A DNA stretch of 64,000 bases from an uncultured Croceitalea sp. (GTDB lineage Bacteria > Bacteroidota > Bacteroidia > Flavobacteriales > Flavobacteriaceae): contig CANNDD010000002.1 of assembly GCA_947503285.1 (NCBI GenBank), positions 434,001 to 498,000 of the forward strand, written 5' to 3'. The notes under the pieces were generated by a model. The model was not told where the DNA came from and searched no databases. It saw nothing but the letters and a program-made list of their open reading frames with translations. Of the stretch, positions 27,475 through 38,552 are shown one piece after another. Position 1 is the first letter of the stretch; the number at the start of each line of letters is the position of its first letter. A program made the translations under genes and the position numbers.

Positions 27475-29526
27475 ATGAAATGCGCAACAGCCTTATTCTT
27501 TTTTTTCTCGGTATGTACGGCTAGCGGCCAATTGCAGAAAAAGGATAGCGTGCTTGATTTGTGCAAGAGGGCCAGTGACCCTATCCAAAAAGCTACCTAT
27601 CTTAATTATATAGCCCAGAACCTCTTGGGTCAAAATTCTGATAGTGTTATCATATACGGAAAAAAAGCGCTAGCGCTCAGCAAGCGAAACAATGATGTTT
27701 ATAGTAGGGTAGAAAGTCTGCGTTCGGTTGCCATGGGTTACAGCTATGCCGCCAAATTTGATGAAGGACTTGATGTCGCCAGAAAAGCATTGAAAATGGC
27801 ACAGAACAGTAACATTCCACGTGCCAAAAGAAGGGCATTGGCTACAATGGCCTATATGTATTACAATAAAGAGGAGATTGATTCTTTATTGAAATACGAT
27901 TTGTTGGCCCTGGAGATCACTGAAAAAATTGGGCCAGCGGACGAATTATTGAATGCCTATAATGATTTGGCCCTCGACTACTCGATGAAAGGATATTACA
28001 GCAAAAGCCTTGACTATTTTCTTAAAGGATTGCGCTTATGTGAACAGCTCAAAATCAAAGATTCTAGACTAGCTAACGTATACCATAACCTAGGCAACCT
28101 ATATGAACAGCTCAATCAATCTAAGAATGCGCTGGAGAGCCATCAAAAAGCGTTGGAAATTATCGAAGGTCCTATCGAAACGAGGTTACGGCTTCGTATC
28201 AATTGTTATATAAGCCTGGCAAGGGCCTATCTTCAACAAGGATATTTGGAACCGGCGCGCTATTATGCAGACGGTGCCCTGAATTTGATAGGGCAGGCGG
28301 AATTTGATACTTCATCGTTGTTATACCACGTATTCACGATACAAGGTAATATCTCAGAGAAAAAAAACCTTAACCGTGCCGTTCTAGGGCATTACACCGA
28401 GGCCAAAAAGAATGCCGATGCCTCTGGGCATTTTATTTTAAAGGGAAGGGCCAGGCTTAATATTTCAAACTTTTACATCAGCTTGGGTGAGATCGATAAT
28501 GCCACAATGAACTTGGATTCCGTTGAGCAATTTGCCAAAAAGAGCGGTGATCTTAAACAGCAGCGTGATTTTTACCGCACCAAAGCACGTATAGATTCTT
28601 TAAAGGGTGACTTGATATCATACGGAGAAAGCATCTTCAAGTTTATACAATATCAAGATAGCTTGGCTTCGGTCGAAAAACAGAAAGCACTTGATGTACT
28701 GCAGATTGAATACGACACCGAATTAAAAGATAACGAAATCGCCCTTTTGCAACGTGAAAATGAGATACGCTCCATAAAGCAAAAGCAAATGACACAACTT
28801 CAATTTGGCCTCATTGTACTGACATTATTATTACTATGCTTTATACTGGTACTTTACAAAAGGTATTCAGACAAACAACGCTCTATAAAACTTATAGCAT
28901 CTAAAAACGAAGAGAACAAACTATTGGTCAAAGAGACACATCATAGGGTTAAGAATAACCTGCAGATTATGTTGAGCTTGCTTAGTTCGAAGGCAGAATA
29001 TCTGCAAGAAGATACCCCTGGGTTCAAGATTGTCGAAGAGAGTAAGAGGCGTATCAGGTCGTTGGCGCTTATTCATGAAGAGCTTTATCAAAACACCACA
29101 CTTTCTAGCATTAATTTAAGGGTCTACCTTGAAAAGTTATTGACCCTTATAGAAAAATCCCTTTCATCAGATACCACCCAAGTGAACATAAAGACCTATA
29201 TCGCCAACGTCGAAATTAGAATGAGTATGGCAGTATCTTTAGGTCTAATCGTGAACGAGTTGGTCAGTAACGTTTATAAATATGCCTTCCGAAATCGAAA
29301 ACAGGGTAACATTACCGTGCGATTTGTACGTTCTAAACCTGGTTATTTTTATCTGCATGTTGAAGATGATGGTATTGGGCTACCGCCTGATTTTGACCTT
29401 CATGCCTTGAACTCACTCGGGCTACAACTTGTGAAAGGTCTAGCTGAACAATGTAATGGCTCTGTCAGTATTGACACATCAGAAAAAGGATCACGATTTA
29501 GTGTACTCTTAAAAACTGAGGAATAG
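27475..29526 (+). CDS. TPR histidine kinase of the HisKA_2 class
   Basis: A 683-aa sensor kinase. A signal peptide (to about residue 19, ASGQLQ) leads to a periplasmic array of tetratricopeptide repeats (about 40-400), one membrane helix (about 441-463), and a cytoplasmic kinase. The phospho-acceptor His is in ETHHRVKNNLQ (H489/H490), the HisKA_2 form. Nucleotide-binding boxes are NELVSNVYKY, DDGIGLPPDF and LGLQLVKGLAE. This architecture (TPR, membrane, HisKA_2, HATPase) is common in Bacteroidota and usually signals to LytTR-type or other response regulators. No response regulator lies in the window, so it is an orphan here. Confidence 0.9.
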   Translation: MKCATALFFFFSVCTASGQLQKKDSVLDLCKRASDPIQKATYLNYIAQNLLGQNSDSVIIYGKKALALSKRNNDVYSRVESLRSVAMGYSYAAKFDEGLDVARKALKMAQNSNIPRAKRRALATMAYMYYNKEEIDSLLKYDLLALEITEKIGPADELLNAYNDLALDYSMKGYYSKSLDYFLKGLRLCEQLKIKDSRLANVYHNLGNLYEQLNQSKNALESHQKALEIIEGPIETRLRLRINCYISLARAYLQQGYLEPARYYADGALNLIGQAEFDTSSLLYHVFTIQGNISEKKNLNRAVLGHYTEAKKNADASGHFILKGRARLNISNFYISLGEIDNATMNLDSVEQFAKKSGDLKQQRDFYRTKARIDSLKGDLISYGESIFKFIQYQDSLASVEKQKALDVLQIEYDTELKDNEIALLQRENEIRSIKQKQMTQLQFGLIVLTLLLLCFILVLYKRYSDKQRSIKLIASKNEENKLLVKETHHRVKNNLQIMLSLLSSKAEYLQEDTPGFKIVEESKRRIRSLALIHEELYQNTTLSSINLRVYLEKLLTLIEKSLSSDTTQVNIKTYIANVEIRMSMAVSLGLIVNELVSNVYKYAFRNRKQGNITVRFVRSKPGYFYLHVEDDGIGLPPDFDLHALNSLGLQLVKGLAEQCNGSVSIDTSEKGSRFSVLLKTEE

Positions 29527-30203: not shown

Positions 30204-33200
30204 TTGAAAAAAAAAGAACAATACCACCCGACTTTACTCCCCATTATCTTTTGTTTTTATATCACGGGCATTTTATGTGCTCAGCAAGATATAAATCTTA
30301 AGAGCTACAACGAGTCAATAGATACTTTCTATGAAGTTTTAATAAACGGAGGAACTAAAAAATATGACTCCTTAATCCCTAAGTTGGCAAACTTAGAAAT
30401 CAAACTAAAAAAAGACCACCCAAAGGAATATGTAGGGGCATTGGTGTTTCAAGCTCGTATGTTAACCATGCGCAGGAGAATGCAAGCGGCTCAGAACAAA
30501 TTACGGCTGGCAAAGTACAATTATGTAAAATTGAATGTAATGGTGCCCGCCTATGAACAGGTATTTCATTTTCTGGATGGGTATTTAAAGTTACAGATAA
30601 CCAGAAAGTATGATTATGAGGGAACGCAATCTGCGTTGGAGAAGATCAAAAAATATAAGGAGGTAGACGAAGTAGTTCTGGCTCAAATGGAAGAAAACGT
30701 TGGGAAAACAGATATTGATTTTGCCAATTACAATAAAGCTTTAGAACATTTTAAAAAAGCCAAGGACATCTACCATAAGAAGGGCTTAAGACTTTTGGAA
30801 GCCGGGGCTTTGAATTTAATGGGAGTTGCGCATGATGGACTGGAAAACCTGGACAGTGTACTGTATTACAGCGAGCTTTCTATCCAAGAGTTTGAAGCGC
30901 TTAAAAATCCAAACTACTTAGGCCTAGCATCTGCAACCTACAATGTGGGACTTTTGTATCATGATCGATTAAATAATGCAAATCGTGCAGAAGCTTATTA
31001 CAAAAAAGCGGTTGTCTATGATATTAAGGATGCGGGAGAGACCAATCCCTATTTATGCGTTGATTATCGTGCCTTGGCCGAAACTTATATTCTAAAAAAT
31101 GATATTACCAAAGCGTTGTTATATGCTGAAAAAGCTGTGGAACAAGGTGAAAAGTATTTTGGAAAAAACGACTCAAGAACGGCCCAAGCAATGCTTGTTC
31201 TTTCCAAAACCCACCTCATCAAAGGTAATATTGAACGTGCCAATTTCTACGTAGAAATGGCCTCTGACATATTTGGCGGAATGGTATCGGAAAATCATCG
31301 ATGGTTTGTAGATACCTATTTTGCAACAGCTGAAATCAGAAAATCAGAAAATAAAAATTTAGAAGCCGAAGTATTATGGGAAAAAGCCTTGGCCATATCA
31401 AAACGTATAGAAAGAGAGCTTTATATAATTCAAGCCTATGAGAAATTAACGCTTCACCACGAAGAAAACGGCAACTACCCGAGGGCAATAAAGTATTCAG
31501 ATAGTCTTGCCATACTTCTCAAAAACAAATTTAAAGAAGCCAAATATCGTCAATGGAATCAGCGCCTTATGAATTTGAGATTAAGGCAATCGGCAAGTAA
31601 CCATAAGATTTTAGCAAGTGAAATAGAAGAATTAAAAATCGATTTTCCCTCTAAAAGGTCAAACCCTGCATTGTGGTTATCACTCTTAGAAATTCAGTTA
31701 GATCCCATACCTATCTCAAATGATCAGATAGAGGACTGCAAAAAAAATCTAGATATGCTATTGGACTTAATAGCGTTAAGCAGAAATAACTTTTCGAATC
31801 AACAAAACCGTATTTTTTATAATAAAAAGTTACAACGTCTTATTGAGAAGGGTCTGTATACAGCATTCATGGCGTATCAAAAAACAAATGATTTGTTTTT
31901 TAAAGACATAGTATTCAAGTTGATGGAGGTCAACAAAAATTCGGCCCTACTCGAAGGGTTACAGAATGTGCGGTACAAAAAAATCGGAAAGGTACCTCCA
32001 AGCCTAATAACATTGGAGCAGGAAACGCTAGAGGCCCTTCAGGATACAAAACAGAATATCCTCTATTTGTACAATAAAAAAAAGATTGATTCTGTAAAGT
32101 TGAGAAGCTTAAAGAACAGATTGATCACATTAGATGCAAAAAATGACAGTATCAATCAAGTATTAGTTAAGGCTTTTCCAAAATACCGTCAGCTTAAAAA
32201 GCTAAGTGTGAAGCAGTCTTATCAAGAATACCGTAAAAACTACCAAAAATCTGATGAAGTGGTATTGGAGTATCTACTTGGAGAAAAAGGATGGTACCGG
32301 TTTATGATGACAAATGATCATGTTACTATTGAAAGATTTGATAATGTAGAAGAGCTTCGTGATATGATACACAAGCTTAGAAAGGGTTTGCTAGGTAGAA
32401 AAAAGATTGCTAAAGCATGCAAACAACTATATTCATGGCTTATACCAGACTTGCCTAAAACAATAAACACTGTTTCAGTTGTTGCAGATGACGTCCTTAG
32501 TTTCGTGCCATTTGAAATTCTTAATAATGGTAGTGGTTATTTATTTGAGAAATATGCGCTGCGCTATGGGGGGTCGTTACAGTTACTTAAGGAACAGGGT
32601 TTAATTGCCAAAGAAGGTGAAAAATGGTGCGGGTTTGCCCCTGAATACACCGAAAACGTACTTCCCAGAAACCAGAAAGAGGTCCAAGAAATTGGAAAAT
32701 TAATTCAAGGAGAAGTCTTTTTAAGAAAAGAAGCAACAAAAACCAATTTTATTAACAATGCAACTGGAAAAGATATACTTCACTTAGCATTACATACAGA
32801 GCTGGACAAGGTCAACCCTATGAACAACAGAATGTTATTTTCAAAGGATAGCACCGAAATAGAGGAAAGCAGAGCACTCACAGCTTCGGAGGTTTACGGT
32901 TTGGAGCTAGACGCTAACTTGGTAGTTTTAAGTTCCTGTAATACAGGTTTTGGTAAGTTGGAAAGTGGTGAGGGAGTGATGAACATATCCCGGGCATTTA
33001 CTTATGCTGGGGTTTCGTCTACACTAATCAGTCTTTGGAAGGTTCCTGATAAAGAAACCGCCCAAATCATGACCTACTTTTACAAGTTCCTAAAAAAAGG
33101 ACAATCCAAAGACGTTGCATTACAAAATGCCAAATTGGAGTACCTGGCCAATACCGAAGATGAATTACTGAAGCATCCTTATTATTGGGCAGGTTTTATA

Positions 33201-33317
33201 GTTTCTGGAGACACCTCCCCCATAGTTGAAAAGTACTATTGGCCTTGGCTCTTAGTAGTCTTAGGCATTGTTTTGTCAGTTCTCTTATTCCGAAAAAAAT
33301 CAGTCGAGCGTCTTTAA
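30204..33317 (+). CDS. TPR-CHAT caspase-like protease with C-terminal membrane anchor
   Basis: A 1037-aa protein starting at TTG (MKKKEQYHPTLLPIIFCFYI); no in-frame ATG is near and the leader follows directly. A signal peptide ends near ILCAQQD. Tetratricopeptide repeats cover about 35-480 and a helical linker about 480-690. The CHAT domain (about 690-1000) carries the catalytic dyad: H864 in LHLALHT and C912 in LSSCNTG, plus GVSSTLISLWKVPD and HPYYWAGFI. A helix at about 1010-1030 anchors it. CHAT proteins are clan CD proteases related to caspases. Tail-to-tail with the anti-sigma-like gene (18-base overlap). Substrate unknown; the adjacent membrane anti-sigma partner is my candidate. Confidence 0.88.
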   Translation: MKKKEQYHPTLLPIIFCFYITGILCAQQDINLKSYNESIDTFYEVLINGGTKKYDSLIPKLANLEIKLKKDHPKEYVGALVFQARMLTMRRRMQAAQNKLRLAKYNYVKLNVMVPAYEQVFHFLDGYLKLQITRKYDYEGTQSALEKIKKYKEVDEVVLAQMEENVGKTDIDFANYNKALEHFKKAKDIYHKKGLRLLEAGALNLMGVAHDGLENLDSVLYYSELSIQEFEALKNPNYLGLASATYNVGLLYHDRLNNANRAEAYYKKAVVYDIKDAGETNPYLCVDYRALAETYILKNDITKALLYAEKAVEQGEKYFGKNDSRTAQAMLVLSKTHLIKGNIERANFYVEMASDIFGGMVSENHRWFVDTYFATAEIRKSENKNLEAEVLWEKALAISKRIERELYIIQAYEKLTLHHEENGNYPRAIKYSDSLAILLKNKFKEAKYRQWNQRLMNLRLRQSASNHKILASEIEELKIDFPSKRSNPALWLSLLEIQLDPIPISNDQIEDCKKNLDMLLDLIALSRNNFSNQQNRIFYNKKLQRLIEKGLYTAFMAYQKTNDLFFKDIVFKLMEVNKNSALLEGLQNVRYKKIGKVPPSLITLEQETLEALQDTKQNILYLYNKKKIDSVKLRSLKNRLITLDAKNDSINQVLVKAFPKYRQLKKLSVKQSYQEYRKNYQKSDEVVLEYLLGEKGWYRFMMTNDHVTIERFDNVEELRDMIHKLRKGLLGRKKIAKACKQLYSWLIPDLPKTINTVSVVADDVLSFVPFEILNNGSGYLFEKYALRYGGSLQLLKEQGLIAKEGEKWCGFAPEYTENVLPRNQKEVQEIGKLIQGEVFLRKEATKTNFINNATGKDILHLALHTELDKVNPMNNRMLFSKDSTEIEESRALTASEVYGLELDANLVVLSSCNTGFGKLESGEGVMNISRAFTYAGVSSTLISLWKVPDKETAQIMTYFYKFLKKGQSKDVALQNAKLEYLANTEDELLKHPYYWAGFIVSGDTSPIVEKYYWPWLLVVLGIVLSVLLFRKKSVERL

Positions 33318-34013
33318 AAGCACATTAGCTTTTTTCACATTGTATTTGTTTTGGGCAACAACTCGCTCAAGGCTTTTCTTGGCATTGACCACATCATCCA
33401 ATTTTAAATAAGCCATGGCCAAATACCAATGTGATTTTTGGGTAAGGGTATCCTTGGTTTTTAAATGCGCCTGTAATGCAACAATGGCTTCTCTAGGTCT
33501 GTTCAATTGCAATAAGGCATTGGCTTTATAGAATAGAAAATGGGGGGTATTGGTAGTTTCGTATAATTTTTCGAACAATTCCAACGCCTCCCTATATTCC
33601 CCTTTCTCATAATGTGCAAAAGCTTGGGTCTTTAAATCTTTTTGTTGGGTAGTACGTGTGATGGGGTGAACCACGTTTCGATAGGGTTCAAAATTTTCCG
33701 TATAGAGTATCTGGGTATCGGGAGCACCTTGTCTTGTTGCAAAATAGGTAATGCTGACCACCAGTGCCAAAGAGGCGGCGACCCACCAAATACTTGCCAT
33801 CTTTTTGCCATGGTGTTCCGCTTCAAAACCTGCAACCATTTCACGGGCCATAACGTCATCCTCGGCTTCGGCGACCTTGTTGAGGTCTTCAAGTAGTTTG
33901 ACCTCGGCCTTAAAGGATGGGTCTTCCAATAGCAGCGCATCAAAACGAAGCTGTTCCTCCTTCGAAAGCGACTGTGTCAAGAATTTCGTGATAAGTTGGT
34001 CTTTATCCATCAT
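33300..34013 (-). CDS. Single-pass membrane TPR protein, anti-sigma-like partner of the ECF sigma factor
   Basis: A 237-aa protein. The N-terminal about 70 residues (MMDKDQLITKFLTQSLSKEE) look like a short helical sigma-binding segment without zinc ligands. A membrane helix lies at about 74-92 (MASIWWVAASLALVVSITY). The rest, outside, contains tetratricopeptide repeats (about 125-235; AFAHYEKGEYREALELFEKL). The gene starts 3 bases after the sigma-factor stop, the usual place for a cognate anti-sigma factor. Being membrane-bound with an outer TPR, it could sense or be cut by the TPR-CHAT protease. Anti-sigma function is inferred. Confidence 0.75.
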   Translation of the reverse strand: MMDKDQLITKFLTQSLSKEEQLRFDALLLEDPSFKAEVKLLEDLNKVAEAEDDVMAREMVAGFEAEHHGKKMASIWWVAASLALVVSITYFATRQGAPDTQILYTENFEPYRNVVHPITRTTQQKDLKTQAFAHYEKGEYREALELFEKLYETTNTPHFLFYKANALLQLNRPREAIVALQAHLKTKDTLTQKSHWYLAMAYLKLDDVVNAKKSLERVVAQNKYNVKKANVLLKTLD

Positions 34014-34016
34014 CCG

Positions 34017-34556
34017 TTAGTTCATCATTTGCTTCAGGGTTTTGAGGCATCTGGATTTTTGCGCTTTGACCGTATTCGCATTTCCATATTCAGTTTGTTC
34101 AACGATTTCCTCAATAGTAAGTCCCCTATAATAAAATAAGGTTAACACCAATTGGCATTTTTTACCCAGTTTTACAAAAAAGGTCCGCAACAGCCTTTGC
34201 TCTTTGGTCAATTCTGAACTTGGTTCAATTTCAATCCCTTCCACTGCTTCATTAACCACATGCAATGGGTTTTCCATGGCTATGGTTTTCGATTCCCTTT
34301 TGAGCGCATCAAAGAGCATGTATTTTCCAATACCAAAAAGATAAGACTTTAGGCTGCCCTGCATGTTTTCCAGTTTTCCCTGAATGGCTTTTTTGCGCAA
34401 AGCCAGAAACGCTTCTTGGTACACATCTAAAATAAGGGAATCGTCCGCACCTAGGGACTTTCCAAAATTTAAGAAAGCACCCCGGTAGTTGTTGTACAAG
34501 GCCTTCAGTTTTAGCCTATCATCTGATTTTAAATGCTCGAGTTGCGTTAGGTCCAC
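34017..34556 (-). CDS. ECF sigma-70 family RNA polymerase sigma factor
   Basis: A 179-aa ECF sigma factor: region 2 at about 20-90 (LKALYNNYRGAFLNFG, DVYQEAFLALRKK, SLKSYLFGIGKYM) and region 4 at about 120-175 (LTLFYYRGLTIEEIVEQTEY, NANTVKAQKSRCLKTLKQ). It directs RNA polymerase to a small regulon. It is transcribed with the membrane TPR partner and diverges from the OmpA-led operon across a 79-base gap, so that operon is its most likely target. A GTTAAC palindrome lies at 34580-34585 in the shared promoter region. Confidence 0.92.
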   Translation of the reverse strand: MDLTQLEHLKSDDRLKLKALYNNYRGAFLNFGKSLGADDSLILDVYQEAFLALRKKAIQGKLENMQGSLKSYLFGIGKYMLFDALKRESKTIAMENPLHVVNEAVEGIEIEPSSELTKEQRLLRTFFVKLGKKCQLVLTLFYYRGLTIEEIVEQTEYGNANTVKAQKSRCLKTLKQMMN

Positions 34557-34635
34557 TCAAAAAAATTTTTCAGCCAAATGTTAACCTCTTGTTTCGGGGA
34601 TAAGACTAAAGGTAAATAGAACTAAATAAATAACA

Positions 34636-35991
34636 ATGAAAATACCATGTAATACAAAGATTGTCTGGGTAATCGGCCTCTTTCTAATGATGGCTGCAAA
34701 TGCAAACGCACAGTTTTTAAAAAAACTTAAAAAGCGGGCTGAAGAAAGTGTGAACAGAACCGTAGAACGCAAGGTTGAAGAAAAGACCGAACAGAAGACC
34801 GAACAGGCTATCGATAGTCTTTTTGAAATGGGCAAGGGCAAAAAAAAGGGAAAGAAGAGAAAAGGCACCAAAAACGGTAATGATACAGAAAATGAAATGT
34901 CCATGGACCAAGATATGGATGGTGATGACATGTCAGATACCCCTACGGAAGAGACCTCTTTTGAAGCCTATTCAAAATTTGATTTTACCCCAGGCGAAAC
35001 GATTATTGGTTTTGAAGACTTCTCACAAGATGAGCTAGGGGATCTTCCTGCAAGGTGGAATACGAACACTTCTGCCGAAATAGTGGATCTCAGCACACAA
35101 AATGGAAAATGGATGCGTATTGGTTTGGGCAAAAGCGCCTTTGTAGCAGATTTCATCACTGAAATACCTGAAAATTTTACAATTGAATTTGATGTCATTT
35201 TTGATTTTGAACCAAGTAAATGGGCTTACAGCCGAAGATTGGGCTTTATCCTTTCTGATTTGGAGGACCCTAACTATAGCTTGGACAAAGATCAAGTCGG
35301 GAAAAACTTTTTTAGAATGAACTTAGTGGGCGATATAGGCTCTGAATACTTTAAGGTAACCCCCAATCCGCAACAAAAGGCAAATGCGCGTTTTCCACTT
35401 GAGCAGTTGTCTAAGAACAGCAACCAAAGGGGAATTCCCATGCACGTGTCCATTTGGCGCCAAAAAACACGTGTACGGGTCTATGTAGATGAAAAAAAGG
35501 TATTTGATGTGCCAAGGGCTTTAGAAAAGGGGGTTGTTGCGAGAACCCTTCGATTACAAAGCCATGTATCTGAAGAAAACGAGTACTTCTACATCAATAA
35601 CATTCGCTATGCCGTTGGAAAGCCCGATATGCGTAATAAGCTGCTAACGGAAGGAAAATTGGTTACCTATGGCATAACGTTTGATTCCGGTTCGGCCATA
35701 TTACGACCAGAATCCCACGGTACGCTCAAAAATTTGGCGGCCATTTTGAACGAAAACCCTGAAGTACAAGTGGAAATTGTGGGCCATACCGATGCGGATG
35801 GTGATGCCGATTTCAATATGGACCTCTCCATGATGAGAGCTTCAGCCGTGGCCCATGCGTTGGAAGCGCAATTTGGGGTTTCGCCAAATCAATTGTCTTC
35901 TAGCGGAAAGGGCGAGACCGAATTGTTGGACACGGGTAACTCCCCCGAAAGCAAGGCCAAAAATAGACGGGTGGAATTCATAAAACGCTAA
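34636..35991 (+). CDS. OmpA-family outer-membrane protein
   Basis: A 451-aa exported protein. The signal peptide ends near AANANAQ. Next is a strongly charged coiled region rich in Lys/Glu (about 27-85), then an acidic Met/Asp stretch, a beta-rich domain (about 110-330; ends with YFYINNIRYAVG) resembling a lectin/laminin-G-like fold, and the OmpA peptidoglycan-binding domain (about 345-451; TFDSGSAILRPES and VGHTDADGDADFN). It would link the outer membrane to peptidoglycan while displaying the beta domain. First gene of a tightly spaced four-gene operon divergent from the ECF sigma gene. Confidence 0.85.
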   Translation: MKIPCNTKIVWVIGLFLMMAANANAQFLKKLKKRAEESVNRTVERKVEEKTEQKTEQAIDSLFEMGKGKKKGKKRKGTKNGNDTENEMSMDQDMDGDDMSDTPTEETSFEAYSKFDFTPGETIIGFEDFSQDELGDLPARWNTNTSAEIVDLSTQNGKWMRIGLGKSAFVADFITEIPENFTIEFDVIFDFEPSKWAYSRRLGFILSDLEDPNYSLDKDQVGKNFFRMNLVGDIGSEYFKVTPNPQQKANARFPLEQLSKNSNQRGIPMHVSIWRQKTRVRVYVDEKKVFDVPRALEKGVVARTLRLQSHVSEENEYFYINNIRYAVGKPDMRNKLLTEGKLVTYGITFDSGSAILRPESHGTLKNLAAILNENPEVQVEIVGHTDADGDADFNMDLSMMRASAVAHALEAQFGVSPNQLSSSGKGETELLDTGNSPESKAKNRRVEFIKR

Positions 35992-36003: not shown

Positions 36004-37497
36004 ATGAAAACAGTATACAGTATTGCCTTGGGGCTGCTCATGGTATGGGCCACCTATGGCCAAACCTTTAAAAAAGCAGAAGGAAGTGGAACGGATGTTA
36101 CCATAAGTAAAAAAGGGGAAATCTTCGTAGTGGGCACCTCTAAGCAGATTTTCAAATATGATTTTAAGATTGAGGACTTTAGATTGCACTCTAAAGCCAA
36201 TAGAAGCGCCAAAGCCATTGCAGCAGCCCAAGAAAAGTTTTCTTACCTACTCACCAACGATGGCCGTATGCACATTACATATGCCACCAATGACAGTAGA
36301 ATAGGCGCTATCGGTTCTTTGAAGCTCATAGATATTTATGTAGGGGAGAACAATGCGCTTTGGGGCGTTGATACAAGGGGTGCCGTTAAGCGATATAGTT
36401 CAAGTTGGCAGCCGTTTTCCATAGCGGGGAATAATAACAAAAAGGTATGTGTAAACAATTCGGGCCGGGTTTTTACCCTGAAAAACGACAATACGATTTA
36501 CGAATATTACAATGGTGCGAAAAGGAAACTACCAGGTGCCGCCACCGATATTACGTATGACCATGCCCAAAAGAAATTGTATGTGCTGGGTACCTCAAAG
36601 CGTTTTTTTGTGTGGAACCCAGGGCGTAAAAACTGGGATTTGGTCAAAAACACGCGGAATGACTTCAAAAGCATCGCTGCCCATAACGGCCAGTTGTGGG
36701 GCACTACCACAAGAAATGAAATTTATACCACGGCAAACGTTAAAAAAACGACATCAAATAATTTAGGCAACAAGAAACTGAAAATTACCCTGACCAAGGT
36801 AGAATGCCTTAAAAATGGCGATGGAGGGAACAATGCTGATGACTATTTTCTAGAGTTTTTCACCACATTAAACGTGACAAATAGGAACTTTCCTTTAAGG
36901 GGTAAAGAATATTTAAGACTAGAATCCGAGATTAAAGAATACGGTGAGAATAGAAACCTCTACATTGATTATAGACACCGCCGACAGGAAGGGAAGCTGG
37001 CACACGATTTTACATGGTACCTAGTAGATAAAGAGACAGAACGGATGTTGGCAAAGCGACAACTTCATGTACAACCAAGAAAGTCTATAAATATTAATAA
37101 TAGCGGCTATTTTGAGCTTAAGGGCACTAACACTATCAAAGAAAGTAACTCCCAATTTTATATCGGTGCCACATTGGGTGAAATTACCCATAGAACAACT
37201 TTACAATTGAAAGCACCGGGCTGGGAAATAACCAAGATTATTGGCGAGAAGAAAAAAATCAATCTTCCCTTGGCATTAGACTACTTGTCCAAAACAAAAA
37301 ACAAAGGTGACTTCTCCTTTAGCAGAGCTCCGTACTATCGCATGGGTACAGGCTATGCCGGGCTTACTTTGGATGAAGACGCAGGTGGACATCGCTCCAT
37401 GAGCGGATATTTCTACGGCTTAAGTAGGGAAGATGAAGATGGGACCAAGGTTACACGTGAGGCCAAAGTCCATTTTACCATTGAATTAATAGATTAA
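36004..37497 (+). CDS. Exported tectonin-like propeller protein with shared C-terminal beta domain
   Basis: A 497-aa protein with a signal peptide (to about residue 20, ATYGQTF). The N-terminal half consists of repeats of the tectonin/WD type (GSGTDVTISKKGEIFVVGTS, KLIDIYVGENNALWGVD), a probable six-bladed propeller. The C-terminal about 230 residues (from KLKITLTKVE) form a beta-rich domain also found at the end of the next gene: LKITL, GDG, DDY-LEF, and FTIELID at the end. It begins 12 bases after the OmpA gene, so it is co-transcribed. Tectonin domains bind carbohydrates or lipids in known members; the ligand here is unknown. Confidence 0.75.
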   Translation: MKTVYSIALGLLMVWATYGQTFKKAEGSGTDVTISKKGEIFVVGTSKQIFKYDFKIEDFRLHSKANRSAKAIAAAQEKFSYLLTNDGRMHITYATNDSRIGAIGSLKLIDIYVGENNALWGVDTRGAVKRYSSSWQPFSIAGNNNKKVCVNNSGRVFTLKNDNTIYEYYNGAKRKLPGAATDITYDHAQKKLYVLGTSKRFFVWNPGRKNWDLVKNTRNDFKSIAAHNGQLWGTTTRNEIYTTANVKKTTSNNLGNKKLKITLTKVECLKNGDGGNNADDYFLEFFTTLNVTNRNFPLRGKEYLRLESEIKEYGENRNLYIDYRHRRQEGKLAHDFTWYLVDKETERMLAKRQLHVQPRKSININNSGYFELKGTNTIKESNSQFYIGATLGEITHRTTLQLKAPGWEITKIIGEKKKINLPLALDYLSKTKNKGDFSFSRAPYYRMGTGYAGLTLDEDAGGHRSMSGYFYGLSREDEDGTKVTREAKVHFTIELID

Positions 37498-37508
37498 AAC
37501 CAAGCACA

Positions 37509-38552
37509 ATGAAAACAATATTAAAATCAACAGTATTGGTACTGTTTCTAGTGGGAATTCAAACATATGGCAATGCACAAACCAAATGTAACGACGATGC
37601 CTATGCCGGCCAGGAATGGGCAGGCGAATGGGACACCAATTTCGGGAAATTGATCCTTACCCAAAAAGGGAGTAAAGTAAGCGGAACCTATAAAAACGTG
37701 GGCAAGATAGATGCCTTTTATAACAAGCTGACAGGTAAACTAAAGGGAACCTTTACCAATAATGGCAAAAAGGGCAGTTTTGAGTTCACCTTTACTTCTT
37801 GCGAAGGGTTCTCGGGCAAATGGGGCTGGGGCACAAGCATGGACAAGGGACGTTGGACTGGAAAACGAAAAGGGGTAAATAATCCTGCTGCCCCACTGCA
37901 ACTTAAGATCACGCTCAACGGAATCCGCGCCTTACAGGGCGGGGATGGCAAGGGCAACCCTGATGATTACAGCCTAAATTTCACGCCCGAACTTATCACG
38001 CTCAACAAAAGGCAGACCCTGCGAAACAAGGCGTTTAATTTTAGGAAAAGCTATCACCAGAACAAAACCAAGGGCAACATCCTATTTTCCAGTGGTAGTG
38101 GGCAGATCCATATAGAACCGGATTATCCCCCGACCAGAAAAGACCGGTCTACCAACCCAAAGAAATATGCCAAAATTGAAAACTCTGGGCAGTTCAGAAT
38201 CGCAAGGTCCGATTACGAAAAGTCCAGAATTAAAATGCACATTGAATTTAGCTTGTTGGAAAACACAACGGCCAACATTTTGACCAGGCCCGATGCCCCC
38301 TACTGGCTTATTAAAAACAAAAAGGTCCCCGTGAATATTAAATTGGTATTGGATTATTTGACCGGGCTTAAAACCAAGGGTCAGGTAGAAGCCAGTTTAA
38401 ATGAGTTTTTAGGGGGTAAAAATGTGTTGACTTTTAGCTTATCGGAGCAAAACGGAAAAAGAAAAGCAAAAGGATACATTGTGGTACAGACCACAGAAGA
38501 CAGGCAAACCTATAAAGCTGGAGTACCCTTTACATTAGAATTGGTAAACTAA
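37509..38552 (+). CDS. Exported beta protein sharing its C-terminal domain with the preceding gene
   Basis: A 347-aa protein; the signal peptide ends near GNAQTKC. Residues 30-125 have the pattern QEWAGEWDTNFGKLILTQKG then SKVSGTY and FSGKWGWG, a WxGxW lipocalin- or avidin-like beta barrel typical of many uncharacterised bacterial proteins. From about residue 132 (LQLKITLNGIRALQGGDG) to the C-terminus (FTLELVN) it is paralogous to the C-terminal domain of the tectonin-like protein. So one domain has been combined with two different N-terminal modules. Function unknown. Confidence 0.7.
   Translation: MKTILKSTVLVLFLVGIQTYGNAQTKCNDDAYAGQEWAGEWDTNFGKLILTQKGSKVSGTYKNVGKIDAFYNKLTGKLKGTFTNNGKKGSFEFTFTSCEGFSGKWGWGTSMDKGRWTGKRKGVNNPAAPLQLKITLNGIRALQGGDGKGNPDDYSLNFTPELITLNKRQTLRNKAFNFRKSYHQNKTKGNILFSSGSGQIHIEPDYPPTRKDRSTNPKKYAKIENSGQFRIARSDYEKSRIKMHIEFSLLENTTANILTRPDAPYWLIKNKKVPVNIKLVLDYLTGLKTKGQVEASLNEFLGGKNVLTFSLSEQNGKRKAKGYIVVQTTEDRQTYKAGVPFTLELVN

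Follow-up and report, generated by a model that had tools for sequence, protein, structure and literature searches.

The window considered here is a stretch of 64,000 nt from an uncultured Croceitalea sp. (Flavobacteriaceae, Bacteroidota; assembly GCA_947503285.1, contig CANNDD010000002.1, positions 434,001-498,000 of the forward strand). It contains a trio of neighboring genes coding for a TPR-CHAT protease, a membrane TPR anti-sigma-like protein and an extracytoplasmic function (ECF) sigma factor, which are referred to below as CHAT, ANTI and SIG, respectively. The three genes probably constitute an envelope-signaling module, in which CHAT would serve as the site-1 protease that frees the ECF sigma factor from its anti-sigma protein; the cut, the activating signal and the release of the sigma factor are proposed on the basis of sequence comparisons and structural models. 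This conclusion draws on the repeated association of the three genes in other genomes, an invariant His/Cys dyad in CHAT, a predicted topology that brings both membrane proteins together in the periplasm, and a conserved residue in ANTI that changes along with a residue of its protease partner.

Genes and Proteins of the Trio

The CHAT gene (30204..33317, + strand) is an open reading frame (ORF) with a TTG start that encodes 1037 aa. In a Pfam scan, the protein matched PF12770 with 189.6 bits (cut-off 24) as well as TPR_12, and the best stretch of the PF12770 match delimits a CHAT domain at aa 737-1003 (32412..33212, +). Both catalytic residues, His864 (codon 32793..32795, +) and Cys912 (codon 32937..32939, +), are present, and the dyad was found to be unchanged in all 139 aligned CHATs and likewise in all 80 CHATs of a named Flavobacterium set. 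By its CHAT domain and His/Cys dyad, the protein of the window is a predicted protease. As a search of the PDB with the whole profile (profile A2) returned mostly TPR proteins, the CHAT domain was searched alone, and its best solved match by sequence profile was DdvA (8rot/8rw5, E-value 1.3e-7). An AlphaFold 2 (AF2) model of CHAT, with a predicted local distance difference test score (pLDDT) of 71, matched Csx29 best (Foldseek, 8eey_B, E-value 1.4e-15), followed by DdvA and, lower in the ranking, by separases.

Hydrophobic segments are predicted at both ends of CHAT. The N-terminus shows the features of a signal peptide (about aa 1-26; 30204..30281, +), with a basic start, a hydrophobic core and a final CAQQ, and the C-terminus is predicted to form a membrane helix followed by a basic tail (aa 1014-1036, modeled by AF2 as a helix over 1014-1036; 33243..33311, +). 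Of the 139 CHATs, 121 have a hydrophobic stretch somewhere in their first 120 residues and 133 have a hydrophobic segment at the C-terminus.

The ANTI gene (33300..34013, - strand; 237 aa), recognized as an ORF with matches to TPR families and characterized by an AF2 model, is convergent with the CHAT gene, the 3' ends overlapping by 18 bp, and lies directly behind the SIG gene on the same strand. According to the AF2 model (pLDDT 88), ANTI consists of N-terminal helices, a membrane helix at aa 72-95 (33729..33800, -) that is also indicated by the hydrophobicity of its homologues, a loop at 108-126 and TPRs at 127-236. A single hydrophobic segment was identified in 139 of 150 ANTI homologues, and in 143 of these 150 the region before the segment is richer in lysine and arginine than the region after it. 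SIG adjoins ANTI in 127 of 132 homologues. The likeness to anti-sigma factors is weak and better visible in a distant homologue (L175), which has hits to NF052375 and NF010501, with an E-value of 3e-5 for the anti-sigma match and 0.0016 for zf-HC2, both below cut-offs. An Hx3Cx2C sequence, the motif of ZAS anti-sigma domains, is found in the N-terminus of L183, L184, L202 and L203. Csx30 was not among the matches listed for ANTI in profile and fold searches, which consisted of TPR proteins.

The signal peptide and C-terminal anchor of CHAT, together with the orientation of the single ANTI helix, place the CHAT domain and the TPRs of ANTI on the same side of the membrane, predicted to be the periplasm, and consequently topology does not exclude cleavage. 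The sequence-only reading of this region had described a dyad-bearing TPR-CHAT gene overlapping a gene for a single-pass TPR protein behind an ECF sigma factor, with the reservation that protease and partner would have to meet outside the cytoplasm. The arrangement is borne out in its ORFs, domains and residues, and the reservation can be lifted, as the hydrophobic segments and the lysine/arginine bias predict a periplasmic location for both the CHAT domain and the TPRs of its partner.

The SIG gene (34017..34556, - strand) encodes 179 aa from a GTG start. Its product scores 56.1 bits against the sigma70-ECF family TIGR02937 (cut-off 42.9) and shows profile matches to solved ECF sigma factors; it stays below the Pfam gathering scores for Sigma70_r2 and Sigma70_r4. 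Just upstream of the CHAT gene, a gene for a TPR sensor histidine kinase with HisKA_2 and HATPase domains is located at 27475-29526 (+).

Co-occurrence and Gene Layouts

The sequence-only reading had staked its proposal on the co-occurrence of the three genes in other genomes, and such co-occurrence was indeed found within the family. Among 249 family genomes representing 235 genera, CHAT was detected in 113 and strong ANTI, defined by an E-value below 1e-20 and a clear score gap, in 105. CHAT is present in 100 of the 105 genomes with ANTI versus 13 of the 144 without it (Fisher p 6e-48, a value that serves as a guide only, since the genomes are related). Among the matches listed, at least 106 of 150 CHATs have an ANTI within 10 kb, compared with roughly 0.8 expected by chance, and all 54 CHAT-ANTI pairs situated within 500 bp of each other are convergent. 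These linkage counts are lower bounds because sampled loci that seemed to contain only one partner often held the other: CHAT was found in the fetched stretch in 14 of 20 "ANTI without CHAT" loci, and SIG plus ANTI in 10 of 20 "CHAT without ANTI" loci. As the trio recurs far beyond chance, it can be regarded as one functional unit within the family.

At least four layouts of this unit exist: convergent as in the window (type A), co-directional in the order SIG-ANTI-CHAT (type B), divergent with about one intervening gene (type C) and divergent with about three of them (type D). The genome of the window contains exactly two CHAT matches, both of them in the convergent SIG-ANTI/CHAT layout. A scan of named genomes for type-D CHATs yielded 80 loci, nearly all from Flavobacterium and including F. 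johnsoniae, 73 of which possess all three genes. Six of the other seven are sequence segments 3.8 to 11.6 kb long, and the seventh (L283, 20.5 kb) is without SIG or ANTI by these profiles. In type-D units (L115-L117, L119, L123 and loci of Flavobacterium, including L233 from F. johnsoniae), three extra genes coding for about 660, 330 and 100-160 aa are located between CHAT and SIG. Two further gene arrangements were observed. A divergent set of CHAT proteins of 1,063-1,134 aa (L151, L153, L157 and L159) has no SIG or ANTI neighbors, clearly has other partners and is likely to have a different role. In two genomes (G022:C326 and G288:C73), CHAT genes occur as tail-to-tail pairs whose matched domains are separated by 10-20 bp.

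In the phylum as a whole, the link found between the three genes is partial. In a sample of 247 genomes, CHAT was found in 126, strong ANTI in 30 and both in 26, a weaker association; the ANTI profile was derived from family sequences and is less sensitive beyond the family. Among the matches listed, ANTI lies within 10 kb of 47 of 150 CHATs, in 31 of 92 genomes; for this pairing, 82 of the 150 listed ANTI matches were used and short TPR-only matches were left out by eye. All 17 pairs separated by no more than 500 bp are convergent. In 20 loci from outside the family, the trio is present in several layouts with SIG unrecognized in some of them; these loci were picked for the nearness of CHAT and ANTI and hence are no measure of adjacency.

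The Candidate Cut Site and Its Covariation with CHAT

A single position in the ANTI loop is occupied almost exclusively by Arg, Met or Lys and represents a candidate cut site, with Arg120 of the window (codon 33654..33656, -) as the putative P1 residue. In the AF2 model, Arg120 sits in the loop between the membrane helix and the TPRs, and the median distance of the site from the helix is 25 residues. In 132 aligned homologues the residue is Arg in 97, Met in 26, Lys in 7, Thr in one and a gap in one; two of the seven Lys rows are TPR-only false matches, and L047 and L048, which are TPR-only, were dropped from later counts. The residue is Arg in all 56 adjacent convergent units, Met in 23 of 25 adjacent co-directional units, and Arg in 19 and Met in one of the 20 loci outside the family. 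All 73 Flavobacterium loci carry Arg followed by Gly or Ser.

In the largest alignment, Arg, Met or Lys occupies the site in 159 of 168 ANTIs. The nine others comprise three in which an Arg is slightly displaced and was scored by eye (L085 and L087, two residues from the column, and L202, one residue off), two that are unclear (L201 and L208) and four from genomes that lack CHAT. Among ANTIs linked to a CHAT, the site is Arg, Met or Lys in 143 of 145, with the other two being the unclear cases. In the loop region, the site column is second only to A131, at the end of that region, for conservation, and it ranks 18th of 232 columns overall.

The identity of this residue is mirrored in the protease. 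When CHAT-ANTI pairs were aligned, Asp949 (codon 33048..33050, +) proved to be the position of CHAT that follows the identity of the candidate P1 residue in ANTI most closely: the 143 scored pairs, from which L201 and L208 were excluded as the automatic alignment assigned no site to them, comprise 112 of Arg with Asp, 25 of Met with Glu, five of Lys with Glu and one of Lys with Asp. Within the aligned C-terminal region of CHAT, column 949 separates Arg from Met or Lys partners better than any other column (accuracy 0.993 of 137). Column 910 ranks second, with Ser accompanying Arg, Thr most Met and Asp Lys; it lies two residues before the catalytic Cys, a position that lines the S1 pocket in caspases. 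When a tree was calculated with columns 949 and 910 left out, the main Met clade, which includes a member of another family (L169), and the Lys clade appeared as two separate switches, each from Asp to Glu. Three changes at the site and two at 949 were counted on the tree, giving two independent pairs on supported branches.

Three further readings of these data were considered and set aside. A statistical claim was not drawn from the covariation, since two independent switches are too few for significance. A third switch at L208 relied on sites assigned by eye, and if both L208 and its neighbor L201 have Met, L208 (Glu949) fits the pattern and L201 (Asp949) does not. Finally, Asp949 cannot be considered the exact counterpart of separase D2151: the latter has been aligned with K670 of Csx29 (PMC9729208), and K670 lies eight residues past a conserved Trp, Asp949 four.

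Nine genomes of the family and phylum samples contain a strong ANTI without CHAT. The site is lost in four of these, namely in G162 and G205, which have no SIG beside ANTI and have a common gene order, and in G345 and G433, which belong to one genus and keep SIG; together they amount to about two independent losses. Among the five others, SIG of G487 (L194) has lost its C-terminal part and is fused in frame to ANTI, and SIG of G010 (L189) is cut to 81 aa, so that both are, judged by these gene structures, decaying modules. ANTI of G349 has Lys at the site and no SIG beside it, and G071 and G088 lie on short contigs. In most cases, then, genomes that lack CHAT also have a damaged module, but the site itself is not always lost.

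Promoter Elements and Proposed Output of the Sigma Factor

A promoter search over all unit types mixed returned mainly T-rich pairs, and distinct elements appeared after the units had been split by type. Type-A units have TGTTAAC-TTTT in common upstream of SIG (14.4 bits versus 8.6 for shuffled sequences), and divergent units have GTTACCC (16.1 versus 10.0 bits). The type-A element occurs in 80 copies in 55 type-A loci (0.150 per kb) compared with 10 copies of the reversed control, and was found only twice in 31 divergent loci and once in 25 type-B loci. Eighteen of the 80 copies precede SIG, one precedes ANTI, 38 precede other genes and 23 have no gene start within 200 bp. All 38 other genes behind the element encode proteins with export signals, versus 155 of the 241 other genes of the same loci (p 3e-7), and seven of the 38 exported proteins resemble, by eye, the divergent OmpA-family protein of the window. 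From this placement, the type-A SIG seems to activate its own gene as well as envelope genes in the vicinity. The type-C element is mildly enriched in its loci (60 copies versus 38 of the reversed control).

In the window, the promoter-like element GGTTAACATTT (34576..34586, -) is a match to the type-A element at a distance of 20 bp from the start of SIG. The palindromic core of the element is at the same time directed towards the divergent gene for an exported OmpA-family protein (34636..35991, +; PF00691), which, given its likeness to the exported proteins linked to the element, is a possible SIG target. Two matches to the type-A element were counted in the window versus 0.6 expected, and the match alone is weak. 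Because the element is rarer than its reversed control in the whole genome (13 versus 49), the evidence taken from the genome is limited to a cluster of copies at the second trio, where four of the 13 exact copies lie within 6 kb. Behind the OmpA-family gene, two exported proteins with common short motifs are encoded at 36004-38552 (+), the first of them with a tectonin/KIB-type propeller.

Comparison with Known Systems

In the RseA/DegS/RseP and RsiP/signal peptidase pathways, a membrane anti-sigma factor is cut at site 1 and then within the membrane. The trio differs from both in that its site-1 protease would be a cysteine protease of the separase/caspase fold. Stepwise cleavage of RseA has also been referred to in the context of Craspase (PMC10028731), a system composed of Cas7-11/Csx29, Csx30 and CASP-sigma, which shows that cleavage of a sigma inhibitor by a TPR-CHAT enzyme is possible (PMC10028731; PMC9729208). 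The trio resembles Craspase in having a TPR-CHAT protein with a His/Cys dyad, a sigma inhibitor as the proposed substrate and an ECF sigma factor. Unlike in Craspase, protease and partner are predicted to be periplasmic and membrane-anchored, the partner is a short single-pass TPR protein, and there is conservation of the candidate cut residue; in Csx30, none of the residues was essential by itself (PMC10028731). The suggestion of Craspase-like roles without CRISPR holds for the window, as the parallel to Csx29, Csx30 and the sigma factor persists and no CRISPR array, searched for as direct repeats of at least 22 bases up to 120 bases apart, was found in the 64 kb.

The DdvS-DdvA pair of Myxococcus xanthus also combines an ECF sigma factor with a transmembrane anti-sigma factor, DdvS being active once DdvA is inactivated (PMC4374960), and the solved DdvA chain is named a CHAT domain-containing protein. 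In contrast to the two separate proteins of the trio, DdvA is one fused protein, in effect ANTI and CHAT in a single chain, and it therefore lends independent support to the CHAT-ANTI link. A search of the open-access literature found no paper describing the structure of DdvA. Near ECF54 sigma genes, genes for CHAT proteins, carboxypeptidases and subtilases have been noted, and for this group proteolytic control without an anti-sigma factor was proposed (PMC8999054). This likeness consists in a CHAT gene near a sigma gene, and the unit described here differs by including a membrane TPR anti-sigma protein. HetF of Anabaena, a putative protease involved in cell division and heterocyst formation, is a membrane TPR-CHAT protein like the CHAT of the window, and the accessible text describes no sigma or anti-sigma partner for it (PMC8406250). 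No description of a trio of CHAT, TPR anti-sigma and ECF sigma factor was found in the open-access literature, with subscription journals mostly outside this search.

Proposed Mechanism and Alternative Explanations

In the proposed mechanism, SIG would be held by the cytoplasmic N-terminal helices of ANTI, which show weak homology to anti-sigma factors. CHAT would be exported and anchored by its C-terminal helix, exposing its separase/caspase-like domain in the periplasm beside the TPRs of ANTI. CHAT may then be activated by an envelope signal perceived through its own TPRs or those of ANTI, and it would cut ANTI once after Arg120 in the exposed loop, P1 being Arg, Met or Lys and P1' mostly Gly or Ser across the homologues. 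The shortened ANTI would be cut in the membrane by an M50 site-2 protease, for which the genome of the window has one match, and subsequently degraded, and the freed SIG would transcribe its own gene and nearby genes for exported proteins. The sequence-only reading had arrived at a protease-controlled sigma pathway that senses the envelope state; a recurring family unit, Craspase-like roles and a compatible topology now speak for it, and cut, signal, sensing through TPR-TPR contact and sigma release keep the status of proposed steps.

On a larger scale, the evidence tips just slightly in favor of widespread Bacteroidota-like pathways in which CHATs are dedicated periplasmic site-1 proteases, each cutting its own anti-sigma protein after one conserved residue, with pocket and cut residue having changed together at least twice, and with several such pathways per cell and a separate promoter element for each sigma type. 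The principle of a protease that frees a sigma factor is already known; new would be the combination of a periplasmic CHAT with a separate membrane TPR anti-sigma protein, the scale of its occurrence and a conserved candidate for the cut site.

Several observations weigh against the proposed mechanism. Strong ANTI is missing from 13 of the 113 family genomes that encode CHAT and from 100 of the 126 in the phylum sample. Six of the 139 CHATs fail the test for a C-terminal helix, four of which (L185-L188) stop at the CHAT domain, and the AF2 model of CHAT is of only moderate confidence at pLDDT 71. The anti-sigma likeness of the N-terminus of the window's own ANTI is weak (NF052375, E-value 0.02). 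The covariation relies on two clean independent switches, and includes one mismatch of Lys with Asp (L095), a pairing that is doubtful because the CHAT in question lies 7 kb away; the L201/L208 lineage, where the assignment is unclear, could include a mismatch of Met with Asp. A role of Asp949 in the S1 pocket is one that we infer, given that the residue does not coincide with the position that aligns with separase D2151. Finally, Arg or Lys is kept in five of the nine ANTIs from genomes without CHAT (G487, G010, G349, G071 and G088).

CHAT might alternatively be a sensor or co-receptor that acts on the anti-sigma protein by binding, through TPR-TPR contact and conformational change, with its proteolytic activity directed at another substrate. 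The same gene linkage would be expected in this case, both partners possess TPRs, substrate binding by Csx29 is separable from activation (PMC10028731), and the match between DdvA and CHAT, which extends over almost the full length, is contained in a single anti-sigma chain. However, the dyad is invariant in 139 of 139 and 80 of 80 CHATs, and a single conserved Arg, Met or Lys that tracks a CHAT residue would be superfluous for a pure binding switch; on balance, this explanation seems unlikely. That the loop residue serves a different housekeeping periplasmic protease or another purpose, with CHAT acting elsewhere in the pathway, is a still slimmer prospect. It would agree with the retention of Arg or Lys in those five CHAT-less ANTIs, but G345 and G433, complete genomes of one genus, keep SIG and ANTI without CHAT and have lost the residue, and sites of the Met type and most of the Lys type go with a changed CHAT residue. 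A defense or cell-death unit with CHAT as the executioner, regulated by the sigma and TPR genes, is very improbable even though CHAT proteases act in CRISPR and gasdermin defense (PMC9729208), as PADLOC gave no match for CHAT or SIG and one weak TPR match for ANTI, no gasdermin domain was found among the eight window proteins scanned (no wider search was made), and 38 of 38 genes behind the promoter element encode exported proteins.

Implications

If CHAT is indeed the site-1 protease of an envelope-signaling module, a caspase/separase-type enzyme would join the proteases that start regulated cleavage of anti-sigma factors, and the distribution of the trio would suggest a widespread, CRISPR-free counterpart of the protease-tether-sigma logic of Craspase. 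To our knowledge, most CHAT proteins of the phylum have no known substrate. Many CHATs of the family would thereby be assigned a substrate together with its cut site and a regulatory output, which would be testable in Flavobacterium johnsoniae.

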